5,790 nt of DNA from an uncultured Cellvibrio sp. (GTDB lineage: Bacteria > Pseudomonadota > Gammaproteobacteria > Pseudomonadales > Cellvibrionaceae), in NCBI GenBank assembly GCA_946481735.1, contig CAMLOU010000195.1, forward strand, positions 1 to 5,790, in the 5' to 3' direction. Every line of letters begins with the position of its first letter. Positions within the stretch are counted from its first letter, which is position 1. A program made the position numbers and the translations under genes. The notes beneath the pieces are model-generated. The model saw only the letters and a list, made by a program, of their open reading frames with translations. It was not told the DNA's origin and ran no database searches. Positions 1-5,790 of this stretch are shown one piece after another.

Positions 1-80
1 GGAATTAATTTTTCGTACAGCAACGCCTCAATAAGTTGGCGGAGCACACGCTGTTCCGGGCTGTTGTCACGCCACTTCAT
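1..80 (-). CDS. Probable second NIS siderophore synthetase (IucA/IucC family), N-terminus only
   Basis: Only the first 26 full codons plus two bases of a 27th are inside the window; the gene continues past position 1. The visible peptide begins MKWRDNSPEQRVLRQLIEAL and continues LYEKLI. The run RVLRQLIEALLYE resembles the opening helix of many IucA/IucC-family synthetases (commonly RxLRQLxEALLFEG), which ligate citrate or another carboxylate to an amine or alcohol in NRPS-independent siderophore assembly. The ATG at 78-80 lies inside the end of the upstream synthetase gene, with a 14-nt overlap and a strong Shine-Dalgarno sequence (GAGGTGG) just before it, so the two are probably translationally coupled. 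Pairs of NIS synthetases in tandem are usual in such clusters. The family call rests on a short stretch and on context; the substrate cannot be judged. Confidence 0.6.
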   Translation of the reverse strand, partial: MKWRDNSPEQRVLRQLIEALLYEKLI

Positions 81-1869
81 AGTCCACCTCTGTATTGATA
101 ACGCCCTCGACTTTAGCCAACGGATTGTTGATATGCGTATATACCGCCAGCTCCAGTTCTGCGGTTAACTCATCAATATCGTGCAGGCGCGTGAGCAGGT
201 TGGCTTTACAGGGAATCGCTTTTTTGTGCAGCAAGCCGTGCACAAATTGCTTGCCGGTGCCGTGCAATTGTTTTTCCAGAGCGGCTAATCGGCGCTGCAC
301 GCAGGCCAGTAATACGGGTTCTTCAACCAGGCGGTCGGCTCCCAGCCGATGAATCACGGAATAGAGTTGATTGATAATCAGGTAATAGGAAAAGCGATCA
401 CAGATCATGTCGTCATCGTAAAAAAGTTCCGGGGTTTCCCCAACGCTCGGTTCAATCGCCGCCAGACATTCGCGATGGCTTGGCGATAAATAAAAACCCT
501 GGTTGTCACGATAGAAATAGGTGGTGGGGTAACCGCTGCTTACATTCAGCAAACTGTTTTGCTGATGCGCTTCAAGTGCGATGCCCTGCTCTTCGTACAA
601 CAGGATCAATGGCACCACCGCGCATTCCAGGTATCGCTCAAACCAATCCTGCGCAACCTGCGAAGGGCTGCGCTTTTCTTTAGCAGCCAATGTGGCGATT
701 AATATCGATATACGCGATGCAAAGCCTGGCAAAGGCTCTTGCACCAGTGCCGCGATAGAATGCACACCCGTGTCGTGATGCGTCGTAAAAGGATTGGAGC
801 GGATGATCAACTCAAAGCCGGCTTCTATTTGCCCCGGCAGTTGCACGGCCAGATAAGCCGGATCATCAATCAGTTGAAAGTGCGGATATTTTTTTACAAA
901 GTCGCAGCGGCGCAACAAACTGGCCATCACCTTACCTGCCAGTAATTCCGGGTAGTGATTGAGGCGTAGCGAGTTGGTGATCTTTACCGGAATGGAAAAC
1001 TTGAACATCCACGGGCACTGTTCGGAATACACCGTGCGCACGGAAGACGTGGCCGTAAAGTGCAAACCTTGCCTGCCCAGGTCGCGAATCATCCCTGTGG
1101 CCAACGCGTGCTGAATATAATCCTGATGCAACATCCACTGCGCCTGCAACGGGTGCGCCGGCACCACCACATAATCGTCGGGCAGTGTCAGCGTATCGCT
1201 GCCCAACGCACTGCGCAAAATAATTTCTGCAGTGTGCTCGGCAATAGAATCCTGTTTGACGTAACGGCGTTGCACTGCAAAATAATGCAACTGAAACCGG
1301 CCGCCCAATTCCGGCGCGTAGCAACCTTGCAACCATTCCGCCATTCCCTGGCGGCTTTTCGGCGTCGGGTGCAGCCAGTGCCCATACAGCAGTGATTGTT
1401 CAGATTCAATAAATCGATCGCCCAGTAAACGCGGGTCCGCGTGCCGCGCTTGCAGAAAACGCGACATTAATTGCAGGCTGGATGTTACGCGCAAGATCAG
1501 TTCAAGGTGTTTTTCCTTTAACGCCGGTGAAGCGTGTCCCGCGTTGGAATAAATCTCATTGATTAACAATATCAAGGCGGGAAAAAAATCAATCGGCTGC
1601 CAGGCTTCATTTATTTGCCGTATCCATACGGTGCTGATGCGGTGACGCCCCACCAAAGAAACATAATCTACCGCCAGGGCGAGCTGCATCTTCTGGTGCG
1701 GCAATGCCAGTTCAATGATGTATTCAGCGGGAACAGAATTCAGATCCGGGTGCCGCGCAACCCATTGCCGCGCGTTAAGCCAGACGCCCTCATCCAACTC
1801 ACGTAAATAGCCGTTGATAAAGGCCTGAAAGGATGCATGTTCTGCAATCTCGCTGCACGATTGACTCAT
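67..1869 (-). CDS. NIS siderophore synthetase, IucA/IucC family, 600 aa
   Basis: Cytosolic ATP-dependent ligase that condenses a carboxylate (typically citrate) with an amine or alcohol through an acyl-adenylate, in siderophore assembly without an NRPS. Full length for the family (about 580-620 aa). Visible signatures in order: GHWLHPTPKSR (residues 163-173, equivalent to the GHxxHPxxKxR nucleotide-binding motif), PAHPLQAQ (237-244), TATSSVRT (272-279) and KFSIPVKITNSLR (290-302), which together form the ATP site in this family, then EAHQQN (433-438) and YRDNQG (453-458) of the carboxylate-binding core. The C-terminal FhuF-like part holds KANLLTR (555-561) and NNPL (581-584). Motif spacing matches IucA, AcsD and related enzymes, but the substrate cannot be assigned. 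The ATG at 1869 is firm: an in-frame TGA lies two codons upstream and GGTGA sits just before it. The gene follows its own candidate promoter and overlaps the next synthetase by 14 nt. No frameshift or missing motif was seen. Confidence 0.93.
   Translation of the reverse strand: MSQSCSEIAEHASFQAFINGYLRELDEGVWLNARQWVARHPDLNSVPAEYIIELALPHQKMQLALAVDYVSLVGRHRISTVWIRQINEAWQPIDFFPALILLINEIYSNAGHASPALKEKHLELILRVTSSLQLMSRFLQARHADPRLLGDRFIESEQSLLYGHWLHPTPKSRQGMAEWLQGCYAPELGGRFQLHYFAVQRRYVKQDSIAEHTAEIILRSALGSDTLTLPDDYVVVPAHPLQAQWMLHQDYIQHALATGMIRDLGRQGLHFTATSSVRTVYSEQCPWMFKFSIPVKITNSLRLNHYPELLAGKVMASLLRRCDFVKKYPHFQLIDDPAYLAVQLPGQIEAGFELIIRSNPFTTHHDTGVHSIAALVQEPLPGFASRISILIATLAAKEKRSPSQVAQDWFERYLECAVVPLILLYEEQGIALEAHQQNSLLNVSSGYPTTYFYRDNQGFYLSPSHRECLAAIEPSVGETPELFYDDDMICDRFSYYLIINQLYSVIHRLGADRLVEEPVLLACVQRRLAALEKQLHGTGKQFVHGLLHKKAIPCKANLLTRLHDIDELTAELELAVYTHINNPLAKVEGVINTEVDYEVA
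84..90 (-). promoter_or_regulatory. Ribosome binding site of the second synthetase, inside the upstream gene
   Basis: On the minus strand GAGGTGG precedes the ATG at 80-78, with GAGG about 6 nt away. It lies within the last codons of the 600-aa synthetase and supports a real gene start despite the overlap. Confidence 0.7.
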
Positions 1870-1931: not shown

Positions 1932-1960
1932 AAGTTAATGAGAATGGATCTCAGCTTCAA
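1932..1960 (-). promoter_or_regulatory. Candidate sigma70 promoter of the synthetase operon
   Basis: On the minus strand, TTGAAG (1960-1955, 4/6 to the -35 consensus) and TAACTT (1937-1932, 3/6 to the -10 consensus) are separated by 17 bp. The hexamers are weak, as expected of an activator-dependent promoter, and the tandem motif starts 5 bp upstream of the -35. Predicted transcription start is near 1925, giving a leader of about 56 nt. The location in the only long gap upstream of the synthetase supports it; the start has not been mapped. Confidence 0.4.
1939..1953. promoter_or_regulatory. Fur-like operator in the synthetase promoter
   Basis: TGAGAATGGATCTCA is an interrupted palindrome (TGAGA-N5-TCTCA). 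Against the 7-1-7 Fur consensus TGATAAT-N-ATTATCA, the first half matches 6/7 and the second 4/7. The adjoining bases AA extend the good half to AATGAGAAT, a common Fur half-site. It fills the spacer between the predicted -35 and -10, a classical position for iron-dependent repression, and stands in front of a siderophore gene. The second half is imperfect, so this remains a candidate. Confidence 0.5.
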
Positions 1961-1964
1961 TCAG

Positions 1965-1985
1965 TTTTACAACTGTTACGTTTAC
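1965..1985. promoter_or_regulatory. Tandem TTAC motif upstream of the synthetase, candidate response-regulator site
   Basis: On the plus strand TTTTAC (1965-1970) and TGTTAC (1974-1979) are direct repeats 9 bp apart, followed at once by a third, GTTTAC (1980-1985). The 16-base core 1965-1980 matches the motif at 3732-3747 in 13 of 16 positions and lies at the same offset from the predicted -35. OmpR-family regulators bind direct repeats about one helical turn apart next to the -35, so the neighbouring response regulator is the natural candidate. This is inference from pattern and position. Confidence 0.5.
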
Positions 1986-2016
1986 GAAGATCAATGCGCC
2001 AGGATAAAAGCAAATG

Positions 2017-3375
2017 CTAACGCGGCTGCTCTGATGCAAATAAAACCGCCGGTTTAAAACGCAGAAACAGTGCAAGCGCAACAACGAAGGTCAACCACTC
2101 CGCCAGAGGTAGGGCCATCAATAACGGATAACCGGGCAGCCACCAGAACAACACCATCAACACGCTAACCGGCAGAATTAAACTGCGCAGCAGGGCGATA
2201 GCGGCAGAGGCTGCCGGTTGATGAATAGCGGTGAGATAAGACGATAACAGCACGTTCAAACCATTGACCAAAAAGATCGGCCAGACCACCAGAATAAAAT
2301 CCGCCGCCAGGGTTATGACTGCCGTGTCCTGCGCGCTGACAAACCAGCTGACCCATTGCGTTCGCCAACTTAATAACACACTGATTAACAGAACGCCGAA
2401 CACCAGTATGGCTACCGTTGAGGTCAGCATAAATTGACGCATTCGCTGCACCTGACGCGCGCCGAAATTTTGCGCCACCAATAATTGCATAGCATCTGCA
2501 ATGCCGTAGAAAATCATCAGGCTGGCAAACAAACAATAATTGATCACCGTAAAGGCAGAGACACCTTCCACACCGATCCGTGTTACCAGCAACCAGTTCA
2601 CCACCAGGATCACCAGGCCGCCGGATATTTCGTTTACAAATTCCGAAATACCGTTAAACGCCGCATGCGCTACGTCAACCCACTGCGTCTGGCGAAAACG
2701 AAACTGCAAACGACGCGCAGGCAGCCAGAAATAACGAAACAGAATCCCCAACTGCACAAGCTGCGACATGCCCGTTGCCCAGGCGGCACCGGCAATACCC
2801 CACTGGAAATAACCGATAAATAACGCATCCAACAGCATGTTACCTAACGCACCACTGGTCAGTGCGACGGTGGCCATAACCGGTTTACCCTCCGCCCGGA
2901 TAAAATAATACAGCACCACCGACAACAACTGCGCCGGCAGGAAACAGGCGATGATATGAAAGTAGTCGCGCATCAACGGGTGCAGCGATTCAGGCGCACC
3001 CAGTGCGGTAAAAATCCAGCGACTGAACAACAGGTTGACGCTGGCCATCACCAACCCAAACACCCCCACTGTCATCACACATTTACTGAAGATGGCCGAT
3101 GCCGCCTGCGGATTTTTTTCGCCCAGCGCTTTGCCAGCACGCACCGAACCACCGATGGCGAGCATCAACGCCAAGCCAAAGACCAGTGCAAGATAGGGAA
3201 TTAAAAAATTGATTGCCGCCAAGGCGTCGGCACCCACAAAGTTGCCGATAAATAAGCCGTCTACCAGATTGGCCGTGGTGAGTGCCAGCAAGGCAGCGAT
3301 GGAGGGAATGACAAAATAAAAAAATGTCGGAACAATGGCACCACAAAGAATGCGATCAGAAGATGCTTGTGTCAA
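2017..3375 (-). CDS. MATE-family multidrug/siderophore efflux protein, 452 aa
   Basis: Inner-membrane antiporter that uses a sodium or proton gradient to export organic molecules. The length and the pattern of about 12 hydrophobic helices in two similar halves fit the MATE (NorM/MepA/DinF-like) family. Helix 1-2 segment FVIPSIAALLALTTANLVDG (residues 21-40) with the following FIGNFVGADALAA is typical, as are RAGKALGEKN (79-88), RAEGKPVMA (160-168) with LGNMLLDALFIG behind it, and, in the second half, AQNFGARQVQRM (301-312) and NGLNVLLSSYLTAIHQP (371-387). Translation starts at a TTG, 7 nt after AAGGA; the first in-frame ATG is about 70 codons further in and would remove two helices. It lies 12 nt after the DUF2218 gene in the same operon, upstream of siderophore synthetases. 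Export of the siderophore made by the neighbouring enzymes is the likely role by context; the family also exports drugs and dyes, so the substrate is unproven. Confidence 0.9.
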   Translation of the reverse strand: MTQASSDRILCGAIVPTFFYFVIPSIAALLALTTANLVDGLFIGNFVGADALAAINFLIPYLALVFGLALMLAIGGSVRAGKALGEKNPQAASAIFSKCVMTVGVFGLVMASVNLLFSRWIFTALGAPESLHPLMRDYFHIIACFLPAQLLSVVLYYFIRAEGKPVMATVALTSGALGNMLLDALFIGYFQWGIAGAAWATGMSQLVQLGILFRYFWLPARRLQFRFRQTQWVDVAHAAFNGISEFVNEISGGLVILVVNWLLVTRIGVEGVSAFTVINYCLFASLMIFYGIADAMQLLVAQNFGARQVQRMRQFMLTSTVAILVFGVLLISVLLSWRTQWVSWFVSAQDTAVITLAADFILVVWPIFLVNGLNVLLSSYLTAIHQPAASAAIALLRSLILPVSVLMVLFWWLPGYPLLMALPLAEWLTFVVALALFLRFKPAVLFASEQPR

Positions 3376-3382
3376 AACAGAA

Positions 3383-3387
3383 TCCTT
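3383..3387 (-). promoter_or_regulatory. Ribosome binding site that fixes the TTG start of the MATE gene
   Basis: AAGGA on the minus strand lies 7 nt before the TTG at 3375 and abuts the TAA stop of the DUF2218 gene (3390-3388). The optimal spacing and lack of a nearby ATG decide the non-canonical start. Terminating ribosomes would sit on this site, which suggests coupling of the two genes. Confidence 0.7.
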
Positions 3388-3669
3388 TTAAGGCGACCAG
3401 ACTAATTCACACGCTTCCTTGTGAGCAAAGCGATCAAAATGACGTTTGATCACATCCATGACTTCATGCAGGTTATCGGCATCCTGCGCTTCGCAATACA
3501 CCAGCAAGGTGGCTTCTTCGGCATGCAACCGGCATTGACCGATACCGAAGTCGAGCGTGCCGAATTGCTCGTCCCATTGCGCTGCAATTTTGTGGCCGAA
3601 GTGCTTACACAATTGATAAAGGTAATGTTGCGCCTTCGCAGTCGTTACCTGTGCCTGACGTTCAAACAT
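3388..3669 (-). CDS. DUF2218 family small protein, 93 aa
   Basis: Small soluble protein of the DUF2218 family, whose biochemical function is unknown to me. Recognisable family pattern: an N-terminal AxAxxYLxQLCKHFGHK segment (about residues 10-27), a central strand region with FGIGQCRLHAEE (41-52) and hydrophobic TLLVYCEA, and a C-terminal helix with VIKRHFDRFAHKEACELVW (73-91). The length is normal for the family and there is no signal peptide or membrane segment. The start chosen is the ATG at 3669, with GGGGA 7 nt upstream; a TTG 14 codons further upstream (3711) lies between the predicted -10 and -35 and has no ribosome site. It is the first gene after the candidate promoter at 3698-3727 and is followed 12 nt later by the exporter, so it belongs to the siderophore transcription unit. 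Family members are known next to siderophore and iron genes, which fits an accessory role. Conserved Cys and His residues could suggest metal binding, but this is speculation. Confidence 0.85.
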   Translation of the reverse strand: MFERQAQVTTAKAQHYLYQLCKHFGHKIAAQWDEQFGTLDFGIGQCRLHAEEATLLVYCEAQDADNLHEVMDVIKRHFDRFAHKEACELVWSP

Positions 3670-3697
3670 ACTGGTGTCCCCGTAATAACAGCCGCCG

Positions 3698-3727
3698 ATT
3701 CTATTTTTCAACCGAACGAACTGTGAA
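3698..3727 (-). promoter_or_regulatory. Candidate sigma70 promoter of the DUF2218-exporter operon
   Basis: TTCACA (3727-3722, 5/6 to the -35 consensus) and TAGAAT (3703-3698, 5/6 to the -10 consensus) are 18 bp apart on the minus strand. The predicted start near 3691 gives a leader of about 22 nt that contains the GGGGA ribosome site. It lies in the 73-bp gap between the kinase stop and the DUF2218 start, so the downstream genes could be transcribed separately from the regulatory pair. Confidence 0.55.
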
Positions 3728-3731
3728 GTGT

Positions 3732-3747
3732 TGTTACAAGTGTTACA
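3732..3747. promoter_or_regulatory. Tandem GTTACA motif, candidate response-regulator site
   Basis: On the plus strand GTTACA (3733-3738) and GTTACA (3742-3747) are perfect direct repeats with 3 bp between them (9-bp period). The site lies 4 bp upstream of the predicted -35, centred about 49 bp before the predicted transcription start, and overlaps the kinase stop codon (3743-3745). Tandem half-sites in this position are typical of OmpR-family activators; OmpR itself is described as using GTTACA repeats, usually with 4 bp between them. A closely related motif precedes the synthetase promoter at the same offset. Confidence 0.55.
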
Positions 3748-5125
3748 GACTCGCCGCGCGTGTCTCCGGCATAGGTAGCGGCATAGGTACCGGCACAGGC
3801 AACAGGATCACCATCTGCAATCCACCCCGAGGTAAATTCCGCGCCTGGATGTGGCCCTTTGCCGCTTCTATCTGGCGTCGCGCCAAGGCCAGGCCGATTC
3901 CGAATCCCTGATGTTCCTCGTCCTTCTGCGTCAGCCGGAAAAAGGGTTTGAAGATATTATCCAGATGTTCTTCCGGCACGCCTGGCCCCTGGTCATCAAT
4001 CAGCAAACACCAGTTATCACTCTGCACTTGCAGGTTGATATGAACCCTGCCACCTGCTGGCGTGTGGCGAGCTGCGTTGCGAATAATATTTTCTATCGCC
4101 TGGCCTAAAGAGCGGGAGCAACTGGCCAGTGGGGCTTCCGATGGCAATTGCGCGGTGATGCGGTGCGCGGGAAATTCAAATCGCGCATCGTCAATAATAC
4201 TGTCCAGCAAATCCACCAGATCCAGGTGTTCTTTTACCAGCACCGGTTTTTCATTTTCCAGCCACGCGAGGGTCAAGGTGTCTTCCACCAGCTCACGCAT
4301 AATCCGCGATTCCCGCGCGATGCGCTGAAAGGTTTGTTCCGGCTTGACCAGTTCGCGTTCTGCACACTGCAAGGCGATATCAACTCGCGTTAATGGCGTA
4401 CGCAATTCATGGGACAGATCCGCAATCAATTGGCGCTGGGTCAGGATTAACCTGCCGGTGCGATCCGCCATGCGATCAAAGGTCTCCGCCAATGCCGCCA
4501 GTTCATCATTGCGCGAACCGAGGCAATTGCGCACCCGCACATCAAACTTGCCTTCACTGAATTGACGCGTGGCGCTTTCCAACTGCCGCAGGGGTTGCAT
4601 CAGGTGGCGATACAACACCAGGCTCACACTGATTAACACCACCAGTGGCAAGGCAATTTGCAGCAACAGCTGTGCGTAATGCCAATATTCTCCCGGGCGC
4701 ATGCGTTGCGGCAGGGTGATGACAAAAAAGGTTTTCCCATCAGCGAACGGAATATCCATCACCGGGTTTTCTTTAAAGTACAGATGAATTTTCCAACGCA
4801 CATCGCGCCCCAAGCGAAACCGTTCAGTAAACGCGGGTGCCAATACACTGCCTGCCAGCGGCTGGATATCAGCCGCGATGACCGCCGCCCAGGTTTGCTC
4901 GCGCGCCTGCAATTGCTGCAACCAGTGGTGCAATGCGTTGGCATCGCCCGCGCGGTATAAACGTTCTGCTTCAGCGCCGTAATCCAGCAAGGTTTGTTGA
5001 TGCTGTGGATCAATAAAACTCATCTGCGATTCGGTATTGCGGGTCAGGTCATTGATAACGCCATACAGCGTCACCGTGCCCGCCGCAATGGTGATACACA
5101 GCGTCCATAGCAAACGCTTGTTCAT
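3743..5125 (-). CDS. Membrane sensor histidine kinase of a two-component system, 460 aa
   Basis: Inner-membrane kinase that autophosphorylates on His and passes phosphate to the adjacent regulator. Domains in order: TM1 about residues 5-24, periplasmic sensor about 25-150, TM2 about 151-173, HAMP about 174-226, dimerisation/phosphoacceptor domain with SHELRTP (238-244, His239), then the ATPase domain with N box ENIIRNAARH (345-354), G1 DDQGPG (377-382), F box IFKPFFRL (391-398) and G2 GFGIGLALA (407-415). All catalytic motifs are intact, and SHELRTPLTR resembles the CpxA/PfeS group. The periplasmic region has no cysteines and no sensor fold I recognise, so the ligand is unknown; iron status or a ferric siderophore is a guess from the neighbours. 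The start ATG overlaps the regulator stop (ATGA, 4 nt), implying coupled translation; the ribosome site is weak, which fits coupling. The C-terminus carries an unusual Pro-rich run encoded by a 12-bp tandem repeat. Confidence 0.95.
   Translation of the reverse strand: MNKRLLWTLCITIAAGTVTLYGVINDLTRNTESQMSFIDPQHQQTLLDYGAEAERLYRAGDANALHHWLQQLQAREQTWAAVIAADIQPLAGSVLAPAFTERFRLGRDVRWKIHLYFKENPVMDIPFADGKTFFVITLPQRMRPGEYWHYAQLLLQIALPLVVLISVSLVLYRHLMQPLRQLESATRQFSEGKFDVRVRNCLGSRNDELAALAETFDRMADRTGRLILTQRQLIADLSHELRTPLTRVDIALQCAERELVKPEQTFQRIARESRIMRELVEDTLTLAWLENEKPVLVKEHLDLVDLLDSIIDDARFEFPAHRITAQLPSEAPLASCSRSLGQAIENIIRNAARHTPAGGRVHINLQVQSDNWCLLIDDQGPGVPEEHLDNIFKPFFRLTQKDEEHQGFGIGLALARRQIEAAKGHIQARNLPRGGLQMVILLPVPVPMPLPMPETRAASL
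3767..3802. repeat. 12-bp tandem repeat, three copies, at the 3' end of the kinase gene
   Basis: Plus-strand units CGGCATAGGTAG (3767-3778), CGGCATAGGTAC (3779-3790) and CGGCACAGGCAA (3791-3802). The first two differ at one base and the third is more diverged. Being a multiple of 3, the repeat keeps the frame and encodes LPVP-VPMP-LPMP (residues 442-453), an alternating-proline tail after the last ATPase-domain strand. Confidence 0.85.
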
Positions 5126-5790
5126 ACAAACGCATAGCCTTTACCGTGAACGGTTTGCAGGCGATCCGGCGCGAGACCGGCTTCGGTTAATTTGCGGCGC
5201 ACGCGGCTCAGATGCATGTCGAGGCTGCGGTCATAACAACTGAATTCCCGCTCCAGCACCAGCTGATACAAATAAGGTTTGGTGAGGGTTTCGTTCTGGT
5301 GACTGACCAACATCCACAATAACTTGAACTGGATCGGCGTGATGATCACCGGGGTGTCATTGACGAAGACACTCTGAGCCTGGCGATCAAGGCGCAGCGG
5401 CCCCACACAGAGTTCAGCAATATTCGCGCGCGAATCCGTGAGCCCCATGGAGCGGCGCAAAAGTGCATCAATGCGCAATAAAAGTTCGGTAAAGTTAAAC
5501 GGCTTGGGCACAAAGTCATCGGCCCCTTTGCTGAAACCGGTGATGCGCTCTTCTTCTGCCCCGCAGGCGGTAAGCATCATCACCGGGGTCTGGCGGGTTT
5601 TGCGCAATGTATTCAGCACCGCAAAACCATCCATCCGCGGCAAGAGTACATCCAGCAAGATCAGGTCAAAACGATGACTGATGGCCGCCATCAAACCACC
5701 CGGCCCATCGAAGCATTGTTCCGTGCTGTGGCCATGCTGCCGAAGCAACTCGGCCACCTGGGTATTAAGCGCAGGATCATCCTCAACAAT
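5122..5790 (-). CDS. OmpR-family response regulator, N-terminus beyond the window
   Basis: DNA-binding partner of the adjacent kinase. The frame stays open to the window edge: residues IVEDDPALNTQ precede a GTG at 5757 that could be mistaken for a start, and they include the acidic pocket (EDD). Only a few N-terminal residues should be missing. In visible numbering (222 aa), the receiver domain carries acidic residues 3-5, phosphoacceptor Asp47 (LILLDVLLPRMDG), Thr74 (MLTACG) and Lys96 (VPKPFN). The winged-helix domain has the recognition-helix segment RSLDMHLSRVRRKL (188-201) and the wing GKGYAF (216-221), typical of OmpR/CpxR/PfeR-type proteins. All signature residues are present, so it should be phosphorylatable. 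It is co-transcribed with the kinase (4-nt overlap) and is the likely binder of the tandem motifs at 3732-3747 and 1965-1985. A promoter of its own would lie outside the window. Confidence 0.95.
   Translation of the reverse strand: MVEDDPALNTQVAELLRQHGHSTEQCFDGPGGLMAAISHRFDLILLDVLLPRMDGFAVLNTLRKTRQTPVMMLTACGAEEERITGFSKGADDFVPKPFNFTELLLRIDALLRRSMGLTDSRANIAELCVGPLRLDRQAQSVFVNDTPVIITPIQFKLLWMLVSHQNETLTKPYLYQLVLEREFSCYDRSLDMHLSRVRRKLTEAGLAPDRLQTVHGKGYAFV

Follow-up and report, generated by a model that had tools for sequence, protein, structure and literature searches.

In Pseudomonas aeruginosa, the PfeS/PfeR pair induces pfeA and pfeE with enterobactin, PfeR is taken as an activator, and deletion of pfeS raises transcription of both genes, according to PMC8001512. 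In Vibrio parahaemolyticus, a GCAAA-N4-GTAAA repeat ahead of peuA has been printed as a CpxR-box, and binding of PeuR is only expected there (PMC4141801). As for petrobactin, the main text of an Alteromonas study (PMC8776838) returns no occurrence of the terms two-component, histidine kinase, response regulator, Fur box or promoter, and the titles and abstracts listed by literature searches yielded neither a PfeR box nor two-component control of petrobactin. The box described below is thus not wholly unseen before; its family-wide role, the petrobactin regulon and the series of clusters lacking a kinase were not found in the literature searched.

Here we analyze a window, by which we mean the whole stretch of 5,790 nucleotides from an uncultured Cellvibrio sp., in which an initial annotation had pointed out a 16-bp tandem motif shared by two intergenic regions. 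From sequence comparison we consider it highly likely that this box is the predicted binding site of the locally encoded PfeR-like response regulator, which would activate uptake, export and synthesis of petrobactin.

Results

The features of the window are collected in Table 1. The kinase has a PF16750 periplasmic sensor (123.1 bits, cut-off 30.5) as well as HAMP, HisKA and HATPase domains; it matches the pfeS sensor structure PDB 3kyz weakly (E 2e-7), its homologues carry the name PfeS in their source annotations, and its nearest relatives, among the best 120 of 984, are 98, 91 and 79% identical; these lie on short contigs, and the window is accordingly likely to be of metagenomic origin. 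Its gene is adjoined by that of an OmpR-family response regulator, as in PfeRS-type loci. In the place of the receptor gene that such loci have next to the pair, the window, which ends inside the regulator gene, has DUF2218-MATE, and we therefore term its pair PfeRS-like, not PfeRS. Relatives do have a receptor gene adjoining the pair, and this receptor, the main target of the box there, is absent from the window as cut. The DUF2218 and MATE genes probably share one transcript, judging from the 12-bp gap between them. The NIS synthetase shares 50-53% identity with the NIS that comes first in petrobactin-type clusters and is followed, as in these, by an AsbB-like NIS, the latter called from 26 residues, which is too short for a family test. 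The initial annotation had spoken of siderophore-linked genes near an OmpR-family regulator; this stands and can be sharpened, in that the pathway is that of petrobactin and the regulator is PfeR-like.

Table 1. Positions and properties of the genes and predicted control elements of the window.
Feature	Position	Strand	Remarks
OmpR/PfeR-like response regulator	5122..5790	minus	PF00072, PF00486; recognition helix DMHLSRVRRKL; cut by window edge
PfeS-like sensor histidine kinase	3743..5125	minus	PF16750 HK_sensor
Box 1	3732-3747	minus	TGTAACA-CT-TGTAACA, half-sites 9 bp apart; overlaps kinase stop codon; 19.7 bits with relatives' matrix
-35 of promoter 1	3722-3727	minus	TTCACA
-10 of promoter 1	3698-3703	minus	TAGAAT
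DUF2218 protein	3388..3669	minus	PF09981, 101.8 bits
MATE exporter	2017..3375	minus	PF01554; TIGR00797 over cut-off
Box 2	1965-1980	minus	CGTAACA-GT-TGTAAAA; 22.7 bits with relatives' matrix
-35 of promoter 2	1955-1960	minus	TTGAAG; TTG in matching columns of L003, L092, L095, L096
Fur-like site	1934..1952		Spans the spacer and -10 of promoter 2; 13/19 to E. coli consensus
-10 of promoter 2	1932-1937	minus	TAACTT; matching columns in L095
AsbA-like NIS synthetase	67..1869	minus	First petrobactin operon gene; PF04183, PF06276
Start of second NIS-like gene (AsbB-like)	1..80	minus	26 residues MKWRDNSPEQRVLRQLIEALLYEKLI, resembling asbB ORF starts; cut by window edge

Both elements had been read and placed correctly (TGTTACAAGTGTTACA and TTTTACAACTGTTACG on the plus strand for boxes 1 and 2, respectively), and they are identical at 13 of 16 positions. 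The sensible strand for both is the minus strand, on which they follow TGTAACA-N2-TGTAAMA and are oriented toward the downstream gene, box 1 reading TGTAACACTTGTAACA (3747-3732) ahead of DUF2218-MATE and box 2 reading CGTAACAGTTGTAAAA (1980-1965) ahead of the AsbA-like petrobactin synthetase. Direct reading bears out the proposed 9-bp direct repeat, with identity between the repeats of 7/7 in box 1 and 5/7 in box 2, and also the proposed common offset from the -35 hexamer, the gap between box and -35 being 4 bp and the offset in plus-strand coordinates 10 bp. When the window was scored with a matrix built on 28 sites of relatives, 10 of them distinct and none taken from the window, box 2 ranked first and box 1 second, and the next-best place reached 6.9 bits, setting aside the opposite strand of the first site itself (11.2). 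Across 300 Markov-1 shuffles the best match averaged 9.3 bits and peaked at 20.2; a single shuffle beat the weaker window site (19.7) as single best match, and the second-best match never exceeded 12.9, which places the shared sequence beyond chance, as had been proposed. High matrix scores are partly so by construction, because the pattern used to choose the training sites was itself modelled on the window motif; the independent evidence for the box is its placement ahead of particular genes and its flanking architecture.

As regards placement, 30 of 34 loci of kinase relatives have a match to TGTAACANNTGTAACA (up to two mismatches) just past the kinase or ahead of the receptor, and four more matches lie elsewhere within the 34. 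Three loci that miss the pattern (L025-L027) carry the variant TGTAAAA..TGTAAAT ahead of the receptor (16.3-17.5 bits), and a distant Chloroflexi kinase locus (L034) has no TGTAACANNTGTAACA match at up to two mismatches. In a held-out set of 29 other loci with kinase identity of at least 38%, from which L103 was dropped as a repeat of training locus L031, at least 15 bits were found upstream of the labelled receptor ORF in 26 of 28 distinct loci. The two misses are L087, where the long receptor ORF starts late and a 93-aa receptor fragment has a 24-bit box ahead of it, and L118, which has no labelled receptor and a 20.8-bit box close by. Under the same test 24 of the 28 training loci pass, three lack a labelled receptor and one stays below 15 bits; these counts come from related sequences, with L031/L103 and the near-identical L094/L096 as duplicates, and from thresholds set after looking. 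Of 196 Vibrio genomes, 28 have the kinase, and all 28 loci have the box at 19.6 bits or more; one of them (L230) belongs to the genome that supplied training locus L019, and the gene after the box is labelled as a receptor only in L019 and L072. The mature N-terminus of peuA, NVQTDEH, was not found among these 28 loci, so that the peuA locus was not recognized there. None of 26 Pseudomonas-type loci (kinase identity 31-38%) reaches 15 bits, 20 scoring below and six having no labelled receptor. A class-wide PF16750 search gave 7 of 274 genomes, three over the cut-off.

Some individual loci deserve mention. Ahead of a Marinomonas-like receptor gene, four half-sites stand in a row at 9-bp steps (L108:9358-9391, oriented). 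In Psychromonas, a 22-bit box (L009:9194-9209, minus) precedes a 301-aa ORF, divergent and signal-like at its N-terminus, beside the regulator gene; this may be another regulon member. The kinase of Marinobacter salarius (L032:10001-11348) is matched in three separate pieces that do not form one open frame, which suggests frame breaks or sequence errors.

Of the 17 loci whose AsbA identity is at least 42%, a set that omits five weaker NIS matches, 15 have the box ahead of asbA (at least 15.5 bits, right orientation); it lies 63-113 bp upstream, once 229 bp. Other NIS genes have it in none of 13 loci, the top score on the relevant strand being 9.2. Five clusters (L003, L092, L094, L095, L096) carry one site each at receptor, MATE and asbA, the relatives' MATE sites being a weaker variant, TGTCACA (15-17 bits), and a Marinobacter locus (L122) has the MATE-box-asbA order of the window. 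The asbC-F genes were found in relatives' clusters; that of L003 comprises a pair of NIS together with a ligase, a DUF6005-bearing AsbD-like carrier and an AsbF-like barrel, with receptor, periplasmic-binding, FecCD and ABC genes, DUF2218 and arginine decarboxylase on its other side. Beside another petrobactin cluster (L101/L178), a 19.4-bit box stands ahead of a speA-like arginine decarboxylase gene (L178:2673), which fits the spermidine that petrobactin contains.

Genome-wide, exact matches to GTAAMANWTGTAAM numbered 18 in 10 genomes, 1-3 per genome, against two for the reversed pattern; ten lie ahead of a receptor, six ahead of asbA and two elsewhere (L123, L200). These genomes, mostly GC-rich, were chosen for known sites and most of the 16 on-target matches were known beforehand; what the scan newly establishes is the scarcity of other matches. 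With one mismatch allowed, the pattern was no more frequent than its reverse in AT-rich genomes, where the scan is uninformative. Among the outcomes that the initial annotation had named as speaking against it were lack of conservation in orthologous promoters and random scatter in the genome; conservation held at both receptors and asbA, and the exact matches are not scattered.

The box is also linked to the regulator gene. A PfeR-like regulator lies within about 13 kb in 15/15 box-bearing asbA clusters and, at a slightly smaller radius of about 9 kb, at neither of the two box-less asbA loci (G630, G542; Fisher p 0.007, uncorrected for kinship); G542 does have a regulator pair, on another contig, yet no box ahead of asbA. 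These data bear on whether a global CpxR-type or other OmpR-family protein binds the box instead of the local regulator. The CpxR box consists of tandem GTAAA-type half-sites with a spacer of 4-8, and in the window box, with half-sites GTAAC and GTAAA, the 9-bp period fits the N4 of PMC4141801. The best NCBIfam matches of the window kinase and regulator are CpxA/CpxR models, though far below cut-off, and the Vibrio peuA repeat was printed under the CpxR name (PMC4141801). A global regulator should, however, have many targets, which is at odds with one to three exact matches per genome, nearly all at receptor or asbA, and a PfeR-like regulator accompanies every box-bearing asbA cluster; we therefore regard a global binder as improbable.

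At the position of the R in the recognition helix DMHLSRVRRKL, the 61 regulators of the box group have R (56), K (4) or N (1), whereas the 22 of the Pseudomonas-type group have H (18), N (3) or Q (1). Residue and base correspond only loosely: R occurs without C in L019 and L020, and K with C in L117. The Pseudomonas-type box, TGTATA..TGTAAAT, was found in 16 of 19 loci with a receptor adjoining the kinase (misses L071, L085, L086) by a pattern derived from the same loci on which it was scored; pirA has four mismatches to it and is hence uncounted. It too has a 9-bp period, as does the printed Vibrio box, so that the initial remark that this period is unusual for OmpR-type sites does not carry over to the PfeR-like subfamily. 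Upstream of the regulator in six Pseudomonas-type loci (L074, L075, L077, L080, L083, L084) there is a second repeat, GTAAAGAATGTAAG, which perhaps serves autoregulation or a divergent gene.

To compare the flanking architecture, 15 near-duplicates were dropped from 57 loci and the remaining 42 promoters were aligned at the box. Invariant positions are G1, T2, A3, A4, A6, G10, A12, A13 and T20, the last being the T that opens the -35, 20 bases past the box start, in 42/42; the -35 occupies columns 20-25 and the -10 approximately columns 43-48. The asbA promoters (window, L003, L092, L095, L096) have TTG at 20-22 and the -10 at 43-48. Only promoter 1 (TTCACA-18-TAGAAT) passed a sigma-70 scan, which is no evidence by itself because shuffled sequences gave 5.0 on average where the window gave three, the promoter/terminator scan not exceeding shuffles; the predicted promoter 2 (TTGAAG-17-TAACTT) draws its support from conservation in asbA promoters. 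The score of the Fur-like site was reached in 2/200 shuffles of that length and in 41/100 whole-window shuffles, so that scoring alone is weak. The Fur-like CATTCTCATTA is kept across the spacer of the asbA promoters of L003, L092 and L095, with two changes in L096, and the CATTCTCATTAACTT of the window is identical to that of L095. For promoter 1 the best Fur match is poor, at 10/19 to the E. coli consensus.

A fixed offset upstream of the -35 is what one would expect of an activator site. The opposite sign of control, in which the regulator would block the promoters until the siderophore is sensed, could appeal to the rise of pfeA/pfeE transcription upon pfeS deletion, from which the sign of control appears not to be simple; PMC8001512 itself, however, takes PfeR as activator, and together with the fixed offset this leaves a repressor site very unlikely.

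The register of promoter 1 is kept in L004, L005, L006, L033, L079 and L081, where the box overlaps the kinase stop as in the window, stands ahead of receptors and is followed by TTCACA or TTCACT. DUF2218 comes after receptor and transport genes in L003, L095 and L096 and directly after promoter 1 in the window. The simplest reading is that promoter 1 was inherited from a receptor, the receptor and transport genes of the window having been lost or moved. That the element is a non-regulatory by-product of the kinase stop codon or coding sequence, as the kinase TAA inside the first half-site in the window and several relatives might suggest, we reject almost outright, since the box accompanies the receptor even far from the kinase (L003, L024, L092, L104, L117) and precedes asbA, where no kinase ends.

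The PF16750 search gave no match in seven asbA genomes; their best kinase matches, 29-39% identical, are encoded elsewhere, and one of these might still serve the regulator. Six of the seven have the box and a regulator without an adjacent kinase. Such regulator genes lie in or beside petrobactin clusters (L170, L171, L172, L174, L177, L180, L181) and number eight, namely those of the six genomes, that of L177, in whose genome a full pair (L113) is present as well, and another one in L174. Phosphorylation residues of the receiver are altered in seven of the eight (L180 is intact), the acidic pocket being altered in six and the acceptor Asp lost in four (L171, in a gapped alignment, L174_13871, L177, L181); all eight keep the recognition-helix arginine. 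By comparison, 77 regulators adjoining a kinase (window and one duplicate included) keep the Asp in 77/77 and the EDD pocket in 76/77 (Fisher p for Asp loss 3e-5, uncorrected for kinship). In some bacteria, it seems, the sensor partner of the regulator has gone and the box has been retained. The proposed regulon of the local two-component system is supported, but "two-component" is not always to be taken literally, as some clusters keep box and regulator with no adjacent kinase.

Discussion

The conserved box, the fixed promoter geometry, the genomic specificity and the linkage to the regulator gene are observed here. From these we infer binding, which is very probably by the regulator encoded nearby, and further activation rather than repression, the signal and the role of Fur, as follows. 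TGTAACA-N2-TGTAAMA would offer the PfeR-like regulator encoded alongside two half-sites in head-to-tail order with a 9-bp step, immediately before the -35. The kinase, if it works as PfeS does, would sense its ferric siderophore, upon which the regulator would activate the promoters of the receptor, the MATE exporter and the asbA operon; under ample iron, Fur would probably repress the asbA promoter. A point against this explanation is that the box is kept in kinase-less clusters and is thus independent of the kinase. The missing box at asbA in G542, the looseness of the match between helix residue and base, the weaker MATE sites of relatives and the one-mismatch result in AT-rich genomes also count against it.

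A broader proposal, to which we would give somewhat less than an even chance, is that the PfeR subfamily has a common 9-bp-period tandem box, with one helix residue (R or H) tracking the box type, and that petrobactin clusters have repeatedly shed the kinase. The phosphorylation site of the regulator would then have decayed, with box and DNA-reading helix retained, and the former two-component switch would now activate siderophore uptake, export and synthesis as a one-component system that perhaps senses a ligand. JadR1, ChxR and NblR are atypical, phosphorylation-independent response regulators. Like these, the kinase-less regulators have altered receiver residues and a kept DNA-binding helix; they differ in belonging to a siderophore cluster, their ligand and activity being putative. 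The kinase-less clusters would form a natural series on how a response regulator becomes phosphorylation-independent. With the box itself, the PfeR subfamily gains an operator that can be searched for, and a whole siderophore system in marine bacteria (uptake, export and synthesis, in one genome also polyamine supply through arginine decarboxylase) would come under one regulator.

Among known systems, asb petrobactin clusters are represented by L003, which shares with them the NIS pair, ligase, AsbD-like carrier with DUF6005, AsbF-like barrel and arginine decarboxylase. PeuR/PeuS-peuA (PMC4141801) resembles the present locus in having a Cpx/PfeR-like pair ahead of a receptor, a Fur box and a 9-bp-period repeat, and differs in that the repeat is called a CpxR-box and the receptor is for enterobactin. 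PfeR/PfeS-pfeA and PirR/PirS-pirA of P. aeruginosa share the order regulator-kinase-receptor, the PF16750-type sensor and a Fur-like site. The box of the Pseudomonas-type loci, which may already be in print, has the same period and about the same offset as here; a 1996 J Bacteriol paper reportedly dealt with PfeR binding to the pfeA promoter. The window kinase is, however, only 31-38% identical to those of the Pseudomonas-type group, the first half-site is TGTAAC and not TGTATA, and, unlike in PfeRS and PirRS, the box here also stands ahead of exporter and biosynthesis genes.
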